From Acidimicrobiaceae bacterium (GTDB lineage: Bacteria; Actinomycetota; Acidimicrobiia; Acidimicrobiales; UBA8592): a stretch of DNA of 53,018 nt. This document shows positions 6,886 to 51,777 of the stretch, piece after piece; position 1 is the first letter of the stretch; the number at the start of each line of letters is the position of its first letter. The position numbers and the translations under genes were made by a program. The DNA lies in NCBI GenBank assembly GCA_002720485.1, contig PBIQ01000049.1, positions 1 through 53,018 on the forward strand, in the 5' to 3' direction. The notes beneath the pieces are model-generated. The model ran no database searches and was not told the DNA's origin. It worked only from the letters and a program-made list of their open reading frames with translations.

Positions 6886-8151
6886 ATGACAGAGATTGAT
6901 CTAAGTACTTACGATCCGATGGACTATGACGTTCAGCAATGCCCATTTGCTCATTACGAGGCTCTTAGAACTCATGGCCCTATTTTCTTCCATGAGCAAA
7001 CTGGCATGTTTTTTGCTTCGCGACTGGATGTCGTTAATGAAATCCTGCGCGATACGGAAACCTTTTCATCACAAATGTCGAATACGACAACGAAACCTGA
7101 TCCTGAAACTCTGGAGGCGATGACGGAAATTATGAGTGAGGGTTGGCCTCGTGCTGAGACTATGCTCACTGTCGACCCTCCTCGCCATACCGCTTACCGG
7201 AAGCTTGTATCTCGAACGTTCTCGGCGAGAAGAATCATCGCCTTAGAGGATAAGGTTCGAGAGATTGCTGTTGGCTTGATTGACGCTTTCCCTGAAAAAG
7301 GAACCATCGATTTCCATGCTGATTTCGCTGTTTCGTTTCCGGTCCAAGTTATTCACTTCGCTCTTAATATGGCTCCGGAGGTTGAAGGAAAGATCAAGGG
7401 CTGGTCAGATGATGCTGTGGCAGCTATTGGTAATAAGTTGACGCATGACGAGTGGATTAAAGCCACGATGGGGCAGTTGGAGAATCAGAAATATTGGTTC
7501 TCTGAGTATGAGAAACGTCTGGTTGACCCTCAGGAGGATGTTCTTTCTGGTTTGGTCCATGCTGACTTTCCCGACCCTGACTTGCCAGATGGGGAAACAA
7601 GAAAGCTTGAATTTAATGAGGTTTATAGCATCGTTCAGCAATTGATGGTGGCTGGGAATGAAACGACGACGAAATTTCTCAATGAGACGATGCGTATCCT
7701 GATTGAACAACCTCAGTGGTGGGAAGCGTTGGAAAATGATCCGGAAGGGCTTGCATACGGCGTCGTAGAAGAAGGTCTTCGTATGTCTTCACCGAATCAG
7801 GGTTTGTTCCGTATCGCTACGAAGGATACTGAAATCCATGGGGTGAAAATTCCCAAAGGTTCAAGAATATGGGTTATATTCGCTGCAGCTAATCGGGATG
7901 GTGAAACATTTGTAGATTCTGAATCTTTTGACCCAACTCGAGAAAATCTGAAAGATCACGTCGCTTTTGGAAAGGGACACCAATTCTGTATTGGCGCTCC
8001 TCTTTCAAGATTAGAAGGTAAGGTCGCATTTGAAGAGCTGGTCAAGCGCATAAAGTTGCCTTCGTTTTCTGCAAGTAACACCTTTGAATATGAACCCAGC
8101 TTTGTTCTGCGTGGGTTAGCATCGCTGGAACTTGAAATTGAAAAACGCTAG
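6886..8151 (+). CDS. Cytochrome P450
   Basis: Soluble bacterial class I-type P450 monooxygenase, 421 residues. The I-helix oxygen-activation motif AGNETTT is near residue 255, ExxR (EEGLR) near 295, and the haem-ligand loop FGKGHQFCIG has Cys368 as thiolate ligand. In this loop the usual His two residues before Cys is Gln, although the residue before it is His. ATG 6886 was chosen because GAGGGG lies 7 bases upstream and MTEIDLSTYDP is a typical P450 N-terminus; the longer frame from 6799 is not conserved. No ferredoxin or ferredoxin reductase is adjacent. It sits opposite in strand between purF and purL, so it is an insertion in the purine locus. The substrate is unknown; steroid, terpenoid or alkane-like compounds are plausible. 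Confidence 0.95.
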   Translation: MTEIDLSTYDPMDYDVQQCPFAHYEALRTHGPIFFHEQTGMFFASRLDVVNEILRDTETFSSQMSNTTTKPDPETLEAMTEIMSEGWPRAETMLTVDPPRHTAYRKLVSRTFSARRIIALEDKVREIAVGLIDAFPEKGTIDFHADFAVSFPVQVIHFALNMAPEVEGKIKGWSDDAVAAIGNKLTHDEWIKATMGQLENQKYWFSEYEKRLVDPQEDVLSGLVHADFPDPDLPDGETRKLEFNEVYSIVQQLMVAGNETTTKFLNETMRILIEQPQWWEALENDPEGLAYGVVEEGLRMSSPNQGLFRIATKDTEIHGVKIPKGSRIWVIFAAANRDGETFVDSESFDPTRENLKDHVAFGKGHQFCIGAPLSRLEGKVAFEELVKRIKLPSFSASNTFEYEPSFVLRGLASLELEIEKR

Positions 8152-8160
8152 ATCGTAGCT

Positions 8161-8247
8161 ATGGCGGCTGACGTTAAGATTGATTTGGACAATTACGACC
8201 CTAGCTATGTAGTTCGCTGGTTGAGTGCTTTACATATTGACGTGTAG
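8161..8247 (+). CDS. Possible 28-residue peptide downstream of the P450 gene
   Basis: ATG to TAG, 28 codons, 9 bases after the P450 stop. The peptide begins MAADVKIDLDNYDP, and IDLDNYDP resembles IDLSTYDP at the P450 N-terminus, after which similarity ends and the frame closes at a tag codon. No convincing ribosome site is present, although coupling to the P450 stop is possible. It may be a short coupled peptide, a remnant of a second P450 N-terminus, or chance. Confidence 0.3.
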   Translation: MAADVKIDLDNYDPSYVVRWLSALHIDV

Positions 8248-45617: not shown

Positions 45618-46658
45618 ATGAGTGAAAAAGAAACTGTGTGGTTAACCCAGTTCAGTCATGGAGCTGGTTGAGGCTGCAAACTCGACCCGAGTGAATTAGC
45701 TCACGTCGTGAGCCTCTTGAACACTACAAATAACCCCAACGTCCTCGTCGGACTAGAAACAGGCGATGACGCTGGTGTATGGAGTCTCGGAGATGATCGT
45801 GCATTAATTTCCACTGTTGATTTCATCACACCAGTGGTGAACGACGCGCGCACCTGGGGCCGTATTGCCGCTGCCAATAGCCTCTCCGATGTCTACGCTA
45901 TGGGTGGTATACCCTTATTTGGGCTAAACCTTGTGGCATGGAATAATGATGAACTACCAACAGAGCTTCTCTCCGAAGTTCTTCAGGGAGGTCTAGATAT
46001 CGCCGAGAAGGCGGGAATGGCGATCATCGGCGGCCATAGTATTTCTGATCCGGAACCCAAGTATGGGATAGCTGTCACCGGCGAAGTCGACCCAGACCAT
46101 GTCCTAACTAACACAGGATTACAGGGCGGACAGGACCTGATCTTGACAAAGCCCTTAGGGATAGGAGTAATCACTACGGCGATCAAAGCTGGAACGGTAG
46201 ACGATGACAGCTTAGAAGCAGCTATCAACTCGATGGAACGATTAAACGATGTAGCGTCACGAGTAGCGATATCAGCAGGTACCACGGGGGCAACAGACGT
46301 CACCGGATTCGGCCTTCTCGGACATTTAGGGAAGATGACCAAAGCATCAGGCGTGAATGCAGTGCTGTATGTCGACCAGATACCGTTTCTACCTGCAGCA
46401 AGACAATACGTAGAAGATGGAATTGTTCCCGGTGGAACCCGAAGAAATCTTGCTTGGATAGCGGACCAGGTTGATGCCAGATCATTTAGTGAGATCGATC
46501 TGCTGCTTTTAGCTGACGCTCAGACATCTGGAGGTCTGGTCTTTGGCGTCGATAAAGACAAATCATCTGATGTGTGCGCTGAACTAGAAGAGCTAGGTGT
46601 GGATGCTGCATTGATTGGTGAAACCGACGCGGGCGAAGGAAAGATCAGTCTTCGGTAG
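45618..46658 (+). CDS. selD: Selenophosphate synthetase, itself a selenoprotein (in-frame UGA at 45669-45671)
   Basis: Makes monoselenophosphate from selenide and ATP for selenocysteine and selenouridine synthesis. The full frame is 346 residues if the TGA at codon 18 is Sec: the N-terminus reads VWLTQFSHGAG-U-GCK, aligning with the catalytic Cys-Gly-Cys-Lys of SelD. Without read-through the gene starts at an unsupported GTG (45708) and loses the catalytic loop. ATG 45618 has AAGGAG 5 bases upstream. Later conserved elements are ETGDDAGVW, IIGGHSISDPEPKYG and TDVTGFGLLGH. The UGA is followed by a candidate SECIS hairpin. It is first of a run that leads to gpmI 23 bases on. Confidence 0.93.
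45699..45713 (+). promoter_or_regulatory. Candidate bacterial SECIS in selD
   Basis: GCTCAC-GTC-GTGAGC: perfect 6-base stem with loop GTC, G first and U second. The loop begins 33 bases after the UGA (45671), within the usual 16-37 base range of bacterial SECIS elements. The closer hairpin at 45680-45692 has loop ACC and is too near. Confidence 0.72.
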
Positions 46659-48364: not shown

Positions 48365-48853
48365 TTATGCCTCGACGATAGCGTCAAGAACTGCTGAGCA
48401 AGTTGAGACCTCGATGCCACCTTCGTCAACAGCCAGATGAGTGATCGTGCCGTCCTCTATGACAGCGGCGTAGCGCTTTGAACGGCTTCCAAGGCCAAAA
48501 CCTGATCCGTCCATTACCAGACCCATGGCGGCAGCGAACTCACCATTGCCGTCGGCCAGCATCATAATATCGTCAGAGCCGTGAGCTTCTCCCCATGCTC
48601 CCATAACCCAAGCATCGTTCACTGCAATACATGCAATCGTTTCCACACCTTCACCAGCAAGATCAGAAGCTCCCTCCACGAACGTAGGGAGATGCATTAG
48701 CGTGCAACCTGTTGTGAAGGCACCCGGAACGGCAAATAATACAACTTTTCCAGTTCCCAATACTTCACCTGTCTGTACTGAAGTTGGCATGCCGCCCTCA
48801 TCTAGAACTCGTACTTCGATATCTGGAACTGCGTCTCCGACATTAATGGCCAT
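48365..48853 (-). CDS. Peroxiredoxin, Prx5 (AhpE/thioredoxin-like) type
   Basis: Thiol peroxidase of about 162 residues. VGDAVPDIEV at the N-terminus and VPGAFTTGCTLMHLPTFVE with peroxidatic Cys in the PxxxTxxC context identify the Prx5 subgroup; GSRSKRYAAVIEDG is the conserved Arg region. A second Cys near the C-terminus (VSTCSAVLD) might act as resolving Cys. ATG 48853 has GAGG 5 bases upstream; a longer frame to 48994 is unsupported. It removes peroxides using thioredoxin, glutaredoxin or similar donors. Divergent from the next two genes, with which it may share oxidative functions. Confidence 0.93.
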   Translation of the reverse strand: MAINVGDAVPDIEVRVLDEGGMPTSVQTGEVLGTGKVVLFAVPGAFTTGCTLMHLPTFVEGASDLAGEGVETIACIAVNDAWVMGAWGEAHGSDDIMMLADGNGEFAAAMGLVMDGSGFGLGSRSKRYAAVIEDGTITHLAVDEGGIEVSTCSAVLDAIVEA

Positions 48854-49038
48854 AACTACCTCACTTGTTGGGTTGGGGATTGATTCAGTTCGGAGCATAG
48901 CCCGCTCATCCCTATTCGACAAGTAGCAAAATCCGAGATTGAAAGGTGAAGAAGTCGCTGGAGCTCTACACGAACCTGTCAGTAAAAGAGCCATGAATCG
49001 GAAATGCCGTATTTATAAAACCTTGCTAGTGTTTTTTT

Positions 49039-50094
49039 ATGGCGACGTCCTTTACCTTTACGGAACACGATGTGCAGGAAGAGTTCTTCGCCCGTGGCTG
49101 GACCGACGGCCTACCGGTTGTACCACCCACACCTGATCGTGTTGAAGCGATGCTGGCGTTTGCTGGCGTTACTGCTGGGGATGTTGTTGGGACCGTCCCT
49201 GAACGTTCTCGGAATATCACAGCGGAAAAGGCGGCAATTAATGCGGTGATGGCTGGCTGTGAACCGCAACATTTTCCAGTGGTTCTCGCTGGGATCGCCG
49301 CTATGTGCGATCCAATATTTGGGTGTAATACCGCAATTACCAGCACCGGTGGGGCTGCTTTGTGCTTGGTTGTTAGTGGGCCGAATCTCGAAGCTTTAGG
49401 GTTAAATGCCAACAGGAATGCTCTCGGCCCCGGATATCGGGCAAATGCAACTATCGGTCGGGCAATGCGACTAGTAGCTATGAACGTCCTTGGTGCCCGC
49501 TCCAACTATCTTGACGGGTCATCCATCGGACATCCGGGCAAGTACACGATGCTTGTGGCTGAAGACTCTCCACCTGAAGGTTGGGACCCGCTTCGAGTTG
49601 AGCTTGGCTACAACCAGGATGACACAACCGTGACTGTACTTGCAGCTGAAGGATCCCATCAGGTATCGAACCAGCTCAACGGCACGCCTGAGGGAATACT
49701 CGCAACGTACGCCGCCGCTATGACAAACCCGACAACGTACGGCGTTGGAAAAGGACACCAAGTGCTGCTGATACTCGGCTATGTACATCGAATGATCCTC
49801 GCTGAGGCAGGCTGGACCCGTCAAGCAATCCGTGAACATCTCACTGAAGCGACACGAGTAACCCCCGCCTATTTGGAAGCAGCAGGGATCGTGATGGAAC
49901 ACACAACACAGAACGATATGACACCTGACGCTGATGGAAAACTCGCAACCGTACGCAGCCCTGACGATATCTTTCTGGTTACCGCTGGTAGTCCAGGGGC
50001 TGGTTGGAGTGCCTACATTCCAACGTGGGCTCCAACAATTCATTCATCTGCCTCTAGCAGAAAAGTGCAGCCTCCCGGCGGTGGGCTACCATAG
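49039..50094 (+). CDS. Uncharacterised Cys-containing protein, partner of the UGSC-type selenoprotein gene
   Basis: 351 residues, soluble, no signal peptide. I do not recognise a characterised family. The N-terminus FFARGWTDGLPVVPPTPDRVEAML looks strongly conserved, and the middle part has cysteines in AGCEPQHF, AMCDPIFGCN and ALCLVV that could be a redox or metal site. The C-terminal Gly/Pro-rich tail looks disordered. It starts at ATG 49039 without a ribosome site; a TATAAA box about 20 bases upstream may mean a very short leader. The selenoprotein ATG follows the stop by 19 bases, so they form one operon and probably one pathway. Confidence 0.82.
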   Translation: MATSFTFTEHDVQEEFFARGWTDGLPVVPPTPDRVEAMLAFAGVTAGDVVGTVPERSRNITAEKAAINAVMAGCEPQHFPVVLAGIAAMCDPIFGCNTAITSTGGAALCLVVSGPNLEALGLNANRNALGPGYRANATIGRAMRLVAMNVLGARSNYLDGSSIGHPGKYTMLVAEDSPPEGWDPLRVELGYNQDDTTVTVLAAEGSHQVSNQLNGTPEGILATYAAAMTNPTTYGVGKGHQVLLILGYVHRMILAEAGWTRQAIREHLTEATRVTPAYLEAAGIVMEHTTQNDMTPDADGKLATVRSPDDIFLVTAGSPGAGWSAYIPTWAPTIHSSASSRKVQPPGGGLP

Positions 50095-50113
50095 AAACAA
50101 GAAGGAAATCACT

Positions 50114-50647
50114 ATGACCACCATTGATGTTCTCAACCCAGAATATGAAACCGAAGGGCCGGATGAAGTCCGTATGGCGGATCGGTCAACACTGGGTGAT
50201 CCGGTAGTGATTACCGTGATCGAGAATTCTAAGCCGCACGCGAAAGAACTCTTAACCTATGTGGCTGAAGGATTGCAGGAGCGCTTACCTGTCGCCGAAA
50301 TTGTGGTCCATTCAAAACCCAGTGCCTCTAAGCCTATTGATGCAGATGAGGCGGAAATGTTCGCAGCCCGGTCCCATTTGGTGATCTCCGGCCTTGGTGA
50401 TTGAGGGGCATGTACGGCGTGTAGTTTGCACGATGCGGTTCAGATGGAAGCCCATGGGATCCCAACTGCTCTTGTCATTACCGAGCCCTTTGCCCCTATT
50501 GTCGCCGGTTTCGCACCAACGGTGGGGATGGAAGAATACACCGGCTCTATCAAGGTGCCGCATCGGGTCGCCCAGATGGATGACGATGATCTGCGAAAAC
50601 TGGCCGATTCAATTATTGACGAAGCGATCGCCTGCCTTATCGCGTAA
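50114..50647 (+). CDS. UGSC-family selenoprotein (in-frame UGA at 50402-50404)
   Basis: Two apparently separate reading pieces fuse into one 177-residue protein if TGA at codon 97 is Sec. Just across it the sequence reads GLGD-U-GACTACSLHDAVQMEAHG: a UxxC redox motif (Sec97, Cys100) plus Cys103. The part after the UGA (IPTALVITEPFAPIV and onward) continues the same alpha/beta fold, has no start with ribosome site of its own, and ends in TAA. This agrees with the UGSC-containing family described from marine metagenome selenoproteomes, here with Ala for Ser. RBS AAGGA precedes ATG 50114. A SECIS-like hairpin follows the UGA. The reaction is unknown; a thiol/selenol oxidoreductase role is inferred. 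Confidence 0.88.
50418..50432 (+). promoter_or_regulatory. Candidate bacterial SECIS in the UGSC-type selenoprotein gene
   Basis: CGTGT-AGTTT-GCACG: 5-base stem (closing pair T-G) with a 5-base loop, G second and U third. The loop begins 18 bases after the UGA, inside the 16-37 base range. It lies within coding sequence, as bacterial SECIS elements do. Confidence 0.65.
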
Positions 50648-50679
50648 ATACTCTACATCTTTTTGCCTATAGTTCAGTG

Positions 50680-51777
50680 ATGCGTTTATTAGGAAAAATC
50701 GTTATCTCTACTTCCCTTGGGATAATGGTATTTGGTTGCGGAGGAGGAAATAAAGAAAGCCTAGATAACGCTTCTCAGGAAGGTATCGAAAGCAGCGCAA
50801 CAATAGATTCTGAAGCTGTACCCACAGAATCAACGAGCCCGACGGCAACAATTCTGACAGAAGCATCTGAGCCGACCCAAGTTCCAACTCCCGAACAACC
50901 TCCCACTCCTCTACCCGCAGAAACTCCGACTCCGGCACCCGAACAACCTCCCACGCCAAGTTCTTCGTTCACGCCAACAGTGGTTGGAACTCCTGAAAAT
51001 AGTCTCCTGATTCAGCTCAACACCTTAAGTCTTGCTCCTGAAAATGCAGTCTCTGACTACGACAGGTCTGAATTTCCGCATTGGGACGATGAAGATGGAG
51101 ATGGAATGAATACGAGACTAGAAGTTTTAGCTGTAGAGAAAATATCAGGGGTGGGATGGTATTCACGGTGGGATGGAGTTTGGTATGAGGGAGAAGGTGG
51201 CTTAAGTGCTCCAAGTTTTGATATAGACCATATTGTCTCCCTTTCAGAGGCATGGGATTCAGGAGCTAGTGAATGGGATCCGTATGATCGAGATATTTTT
51301 GCTGATGATATTTTAAATCTTGTAGCTGTTTCAGCTTCCAGCAACCGAAGTAAAGGAGCAAGAGATGCTGGAGAGTGGTTGCCACCGGATCCTGATGGGA
51401 GGTGTTTTCTTGCTATTCGCGTGATACAGGTGAAATCAAAATGGGATCTATCTGTCGATCAGGTTGAATACGAAGCTTTAAGAAATCTGATAGAAGATTG
51501 TGGGTCAAATATCCCTCAGATTCCTGCCCCTCCCGAAAGTAGCTCAACTCCAACACCTATCCCTTCCGCACCAGTCCCAACCACTCAATCGTCTTATGGT
51601 GGTTCCTACTACAGAACTGCTAATGGGGTGGATATCGATCAATATGACGCTAACGGAAATGGCGATATTAATTGTGGGGAGCTCCCTTCTGCTGCAAAGC
51701 CGGTAACCGTGTTGAATCCCGTTGAGGATCCGTACAGGTTAGATGGAGATGGTGACGGGATTGGGTGTGAGAGTTAG
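50680..51777 (+). CDS. Secreted lipoprotein with HNH nuclease-like and Excalibur domains
   Basis: 365 residues. Lipobox MVFGC with Cys20. A Pro/Thr-rich stalk (about 50-100) resembles cell-wall-spanning spacers. Residues 130-275 form an HNH/DUF1524-type nuclease-like domain with DIDHIVSLSEAW (DxDH at 181-184), NLVAVSASSNRSK and an internal disulfide-capable Cys pair. A second Pro-rich linker follows, and the C-terminus (about 320-365) contains an Excalibur-like calcium-binding motif (DGDGDGIGCES). ATG 50680 follows a GTG that could also start. It may degrade extracellular DNA for nutrient phosphorus, or act on competitors. It is 32 bases after the selenoprotein gene, so it may be transcribed with it by read-through. 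Confidence 0.87.
   Translation: MRLLGKIVISTSLGIMVFGCGGGNKESLDNASQEGIESSATIDSEAVPTESTSPTATILTEASEPTQVPTPEQPPTPLPAETPTPAPEQPPTPSSSFTPTVVGTPENSLLIQLNTLSLAPENAVSDYDRSEFPHWDDEDGDGMNTRLEVLAVEKISGVGWYSRWDGVWYEGEGGLSAPSFDIDHIVSLSEAWDSGASEWDPYDRDIFADDILNLVAVSASSNRSKGARDAGEWLPPDPDGRCFLAIRVIQVKSKWDLSVDQVEYEALRNLIEDCGSNIPQIPAPPESSSTPTPIPSAPVPTTQSSYGGSYYRTANGVDIDQYDANGNGDINCGELPSAAKPVTVLNPVEDPYRLDGDGDGIGCES

Follow-up and report, generated by a model that had tools for sequence, protein, structure and literature searches.

The stretch of DNA analysed here (53,018 nt, contig PBIQ01000049.1 of an Acidimicrobiaceae bacterium, hereafter the window) carries a gene interrupted by an in-frame TGA, which raises the question of whether this codon is read as selenocysteine (Sec) and what the resulting protein does. 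Under the standard code, the region yields a 156-aa ORF (49934-50404) and a separate 73-aa ORF (50426-50647), the two truncated proteins that the initial annotation expected from automatic annotation. With TGA translated as Sec, we found a single gene on the forward strand (50114-50647), with an ATG at 50114, the TGA at 50402-50404 (codon 97) and a TAA at 50645-50647. The encoded protein of 177 aa contains SGLGD-U97-G-A-C100-T-A-C103-S, with both the UxxC motif (Sec97-Gly-Ala-Cys100) and the additional Cys103 described earlier. A Pfam profile search matched residues 6-175 to the UGSC family (PF24696; E=1e-39, 136.9 bits, cut-off 25), and the match spans both sides of the TGA, in agreement with the earlier view of one gene split by this codon. 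The NCBIfam model UGSC_fam (NF041046) gave a score of 121.2, just below its cut-off of 125, so the window copy would escape NCBI's model if that model were used alone.

The 2008 GOS survey of marine metagenomes reported UGSC-containing proteins as an abundant family of selenoproteins, with 255 Sec and 21 Cys sequences, and counted them with the most abundant selenoproteins of ocean and freshwater metagenomes (PMC2398784). According to a 2026 review, they are still without an assigned function (PMC13188914). The initial annotation had likewise described the family from marine metagenomes, with function unknown. The window gene is a new member of this known family. It shares the full-length profile match, the UxxC motif, the interchange of Sec and Cys and the link to marine metagenomes (PMC2398784), and differs in its Ala at the third motif position and its score below the NCBIfam cut-off.

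A profile comparison counting Cys and Sec homologues, which had been proposed as a check, covered 126 distinct family domains. Position 97 was TGA in 38 and a Cys codon in 88, with nothing else observed; the Cys loci outside the phylum sample were retrieved with a motif pattern, so Cys and the motif are present there by construction, and the Pfam search of the phylum used no motif pattern and recovered both types. The motifs were distributed as UGSC (29), CGSC (67), UGAC (6), CGAC (21) and UGGC, UDGC and UPGC (1 each). Ala in the third position, which had been pointed out for this copy, is indeed present but recurs in 26 other members, giving 27 of the 126 (6 Sec and 21 Cys). In the alignment of 97 sequences, only position 97 (Sec or Cys) and Cys100 were invariant. 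Cys103 is present in the window copy but not conserved across the family, where this position is Cys, Trp or Tyr. A large family expansion was seen in another genome of the same order (G423), with ten UGSC matches, nine of which have an in-frame TGA.

The TGA is kept at the same codon in four same-genus orthologues with 69-94% identity. In all four, substitutions are concentrated at third codon positions, upstream as well as downstream of the TGA, and for the closest orthologue dN/dS was 0.025 before and 0.041 after this codon. These comparisons indicate that purifying selection acts on both sides of the codon.

Folding, family comparison and covariation point to an apical hairpin of a bacterial SECIS, CGUGUA-GUU-UGCACG, at 50418-50432 on the forward strand, with loop nucleotides G23 and U24 at 50424-50425 (the U of UGA being 1). 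This position coincides with that of the E. coli fdhF SECIS loop (G23, U24). The 15-nt hairpin has a minimum free energy of -4.3 kcal/mol (z -3.4); longer spans were not unusual, and the 49 nt downstream of the TGA, folded alone, showed nothing unusual (z -0.2). The SECIS signal comes only from the short apical hairpin (15 nt) and from comparison across the family. The six inner pairs of the hairpin can be formed in 31 of 38 Sec genes versus 3 of 84 Cys genes. The Ser codon overlapping G23-U24 is AGT in 29 of 30 Sec copies versus 1 of 48 Cys copies (Fisher p=4e-19, with sequences counted as independent despite shared ancestry). Pair 21-27 covaries in the Sec genes, changing from C-G to G-C in six, and its covariation score exceeded those of all 500 shuffles, which ignore relatedness. 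G23 lies 19 nt past the UGA codon, inside the published range of 16-37 nt downstream of UGA for the bacterial SECIS apical loop (PMC10778597). This codon-level signature offers a clean means of distinguishing Sec members from Cys members in sequence datasets. Two Sec-type fusions with the motifs UDGC and UPGC (loci L040 and L077, genome G186) have no G23-U24 loop, and represent either another form of SECIS or a separate subfamily.

The source genome encodes SelA (368 bits), SelB (308 bits) and a tRNA-Sec with a TCA anticodon. SelD (selenide, water dikinase) is encoded in the window itself (45618-46658, forward strand; TIGR00476, 340 bits). Its gene also contains an in-frame TGA (45669-45671, GAG-U-GCKLD when translated as Sec), with a strong hairpin downstream of it (z -3.1). 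SelD is thus a second selenoprotein gene in the window, and ORF callers place its start at 45708. Elsewhere in the genome, a PrdB-like selenoprotein with a UPVC motif was observed (L080:1264-2208 on contig C23; GRDB match E=9e-8), but a search of the genome, at about 69% completeness, gave no match to a PrdA/GrdE gene (PF09338).

One in-frame TGA would also be the appearance of a true stop, a sequencing error, a pseudogene mutation or a reassigned code. Any such reading is very improbable here, since four genomes of the genus share the TGA and the sequence beyond it is under purifying selection, Sec and Cys interchange across the family, the SECIS codons are strongly biased in the UGA copies, and the genome has the full Sec machinery. 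We therefore consider it nearly certain, on these sequence comparisons, that the TGA of the window gene is decoded as Sec. The proposal of a UGSC-family selenoprotein is well founded, given the Pfam profile, the Sec/Cys census, the Sec machinery of the same genome and a SECIS hairpin that is constrained in UGA copies.

Immediately upstream lies a gene of 351 aa (49039-50094, forward strand) with a conserved AVMAGC segment (Cys74) and a conserved ANATIGRA stretch, whose stop is 19 bp before the UGSC start; we refer to it as the partner. It adjoins UGSC in the tested loci, and in each of the four same-genus loci an orthologue of it neighbours UGSC. An initial comparison of 29 strong loci likewise showed the partner next to UGSC or fused with it. 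In a sample of 396 genomes from the phylum, UGSC was above the cut-off in 27, all of which have the partner, and the partner occurred without UGSC in two genomes only. Outside this sample, the partner adjoins or is fused to UGSC at 80 out of 80 Cys loci, spanning Actinomycetota, Proteobacteria, Myxococcota, Binatia, Halobacteria and Archaeoglobi. Gene order is variable: across the 126 domains, the partner is upstream in 68 cases and downstream in 51, and the remaining 7 without a listed partner are mostly contig ends or duplicates dropped from the partner list. In many loci, the two are a single fused protein. Judged by gene content, UGSC and the partner form an obligate pair. None of the papers found reports such an obligate pair, and they name neither a partner nor a function for UGSC. 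The GOS survey reported a fusion of UGSC with a domain named Unknown_1 (PMC2398784), which may be the partner domain.

The partner had no Pfam, NCBIfam or PDB relative, and its relatives were likewise without a meaningful match; PDB sequence searches with the single protein and with a 94-sequence profile returned nothing meaningful. A fumarase or cyclic-amide hydrolase fold, suggested by Foldseek, was rejected (TM-scores 0.2-0.3, rmsd 10-19 A), and comparison with fumarase profiles was negative (E=0.07-0.14). A relationship to PrdA/GrdE (PF09338) was also rejected (E=0.32).

Several further copies were observed. The source genome has a second UGSC copy (L038 / L046:6510-7955, contig C17) with a UGSC motif and a partner bearing an N-terminal thioredoxin domain (CPTC), and a third partner copy cut by the contig end (contig C20:8-721). 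Contig C272 of genome G183 (L126) carries several partner domains in long frames, and UGSC was not detectable in that genome. One UGSC-partner fusion (L041, genome G136) has the motif GDMGTSS, without Sec or Cys, and is possibly a non-redox descendant. Plasmid p2-T1 of Acidovorax sp. T1 carries a Sec-type UGSC with a C-terminally cut partner (L217:7908-9443); the plasmid is a conjugative IncP element with IS1071 and IS91-type transposases near the locus, and the deposited annotation ends at the Sec codon ('hypothetical protein', 7908-8198).

To place UGSC structurally, we examined an AF2 model built from 27 sequences (pLDDT 94.6). It has five strands alternating with helices, and the helix after strand 3 begins at residue 98, just past Sec97. 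Flavodoxin-like and Rossmann domains are among the top Foldseek matches, with low TM-scores, and no thioredoxin-type match was among the listed matches. The model also does not have the thioredoxin topology with its antiparallel strand pair. UGSC is thus predicted to have a flavodoxin-like rather than a thioredoxin fold, and the earlier guess of a thioredoxin fold is unsupported because the PDB matches are of flavodoxin/Rossmann type. Sequence searches of the PDB were uninformative, giving only chance matches for the single protein and none for a 97-sequence profile.

The 97-sequence UGSC profile aligned with GRDB/PrdB (hhalign E=7.7e-7, probability 92%) over about 90 columns, with Sec on Sec. 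The alignment score of 49.5 compares with at most 20.5 in 60 column shuffles and at most 34 among 30 other neighbour families, the control score of 34 coming from a flavin monooxygenase-like Rossmann family matched via its nucleotide-binding loop. Neither the window protein nor any of 27 family members had a Pfam match to PF07355 (GRDB). The profile comparison thus suggests a probable distant homology to GRDB/PrdB rather than membership. UGSC shares with the GRDB family (PrdB, GrdB and the PrdB-like selenoproteins of the phylum; PF07355) a UxxC after a strand, followed by a G-[IV]-P strand and a C-terminal helix, and the enzymes of that family also have more than one kind of subunit and use a dithiol as reductant. 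In contrast, the long N-terminal part of GRDB is absent from UGSC. The usual partner of GrdB/PrdB is PrdA/GrdE, to which the UGSC partner is unrelated, so the analogy to glycine and proline reductase is incomplete. Many UGSC hosts are aerobes rather than amino-acid-fermenting anaerobes. In glycine and D-proline reductase, Sec forms and breaks a carbon-selenium bond, and D-proline reductase is reported to depend on NADH rather than thioredoxin (PMC10298544).

Thioredoxin is repeatedly linked to the pair. An N-terminal CxTC domain is fused to the partner in the second copy of the source genome and in eight other loci, and a profile of this domain matched solved thioredoxins (E=8e-7). Arthrobacter ERGS1:01 has an operon in the order TrxB-TrxA-partner-UGSC. 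In ten loci, a thioredoxin or thioredoxin reductase gene lies directly beside the pair on the same strand, one of them encoding a thioredoxin reductase-thioredoxin fusion protein. The window locus has no thioredoxin gene and no pathway context, so the general thioredoxin of the cell would serve this copy. The initial annotation included neither the partner nor the thioredoxin link because both lie outside the coordinates it covered. Two other genes were observed near the pair in the window: on the opposite strand (48365-48994) a Redoxin-family peroxiredoxin with Cys, a possible thioredoxin user, and directly downstream a protein with GmrSD_C nuclease-like and Excalibur domains (50677-51777).

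Elsewhere, the neighbours, taken from conservation-filtered clusters because longest-ORF calling in the GC-rich loci produced many antisense ORFs, include SDR, CoA-transferase, acyl-CoA dehydrogenase, enoyl-CoA hydratase, luciferase-like monooxygenase, P450 and Amidohydro_2 genes. This circumstantially suggests a role in the catabolism of organic acids, often in CoA-thioester pathways. In three loci from actinobacteria (L216:4669-5457, L173 and L154), a ComA-like gene (phosphosulfolactate synthase family) lies close to both the pair and thioredoxin genes and may hint at the substrate. A sulfonate pathway via ComA was not adopted, as ComA was found in these three loci only, apart from an annotated fragment in Natrinema.

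The sequence itself shows Sec decoding, the constant pairing, the thioredoxin fusions and operons, and a Sec-Gly-Ala-Cys motif where a helix begins after strand 3 of the predicted flavodoxin-like fold. Building on this, we consider it probable that the selenoprotein encoded by the window gene is the small, catalytic subunit of a reductase that has two components and is driven by thioredoxin, with the 351-aa partner as the large subunit. The selenolate of Sec97 would attack a substrate bound by, or positioned at, the partner. Cys100 would then resolve the product through a Se-S bond, which thioredoxin, whether fused, co-encoded or, for the window copy, the general one of the cell, would reduce to restart the cycle. 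Given the distant relationship of UGSC to the Sec domain of the glycine and D-proline reductases, the most likely chemistry, by analogy, would be a reductive step that breaks a bond adjacent to a carbonyl.

The authors of the GOS survey guessed at a stand-alone thiol or selenol redox protein with a thioredoxin-like fold acting on disulfides or peroxides (PMC2398784). The position of the UxxC motif at a helix start is in keeping with this. However, the strands of the model alternate with helices as in flavodoxin-like folds, with no thioredoxin-type protein among the listed Foldseek matches, and a stand-alone thioredoxin would be expected neither to keep a strict partnership with a second protein of about 350 aa nor to belong to systems that have a thioredoxin domain of their own, which makes the guess unlikely. 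UGSC shares with thioredoxin-dependent selenoproteins of the thioredoxin fold (Prx, Trx-like) a Sec or Cys with a resolving Cys and a link to thioredoxin, and differs from them in its predicted fold and its obligate second subunit. Somewhat less improbable, though still doubtful, is a two-component enzyme whose Sec or Cys serves non-redox chemistry (e.g. a thioester or lyase reaction) as nucleophile or acyl carrier, with thioredoxin needed only to keep the selenol reduced. The neighbours, mostly CoA-transferases, enoyl-CoA hydratases, acyl-CoA dehydrogenases and SDRs, would suit such an enzyme, and class I fumarases and cyclic-amide hydrolases appear in the Foldseek list of the partner with E from about 2e-4. 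Those structural matches have the poor TM-scores and rmsd given above, the fumarase profile comparison was negative, and a redox cycle accounts better for Cys100, the invariant resolving residue, and for the direct fusions to thioredoxin. We therefore prefer the thioredoxin-driven reductase.

The strict two-gene system, the thioredoxin link, the probable relation to GRDB and the corrected fold may be the new parts of this picture. More tentatively, UGSC and its partner could constitute a selenium/sulfur reductase of a new class, driven by thioredoxin and breaking carbon-heteroatom bonds in catabolism. Such an enzyme would correspond, in lineages that are mostly aerobic, to glycine and D-proline reductase. 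The pair extends across Actinomycetota, Proteobacteria and archaea, in some cases on plasmids, with interchangeable Sec and Cys versions. Culturable hosts of the Cys versions include Arthrobacter, Nocardioides, Actinomadura and Natrinema. With an obligate pair and a thioredoxin link, a family of unknown function becomes a system amenable to purification and assay.
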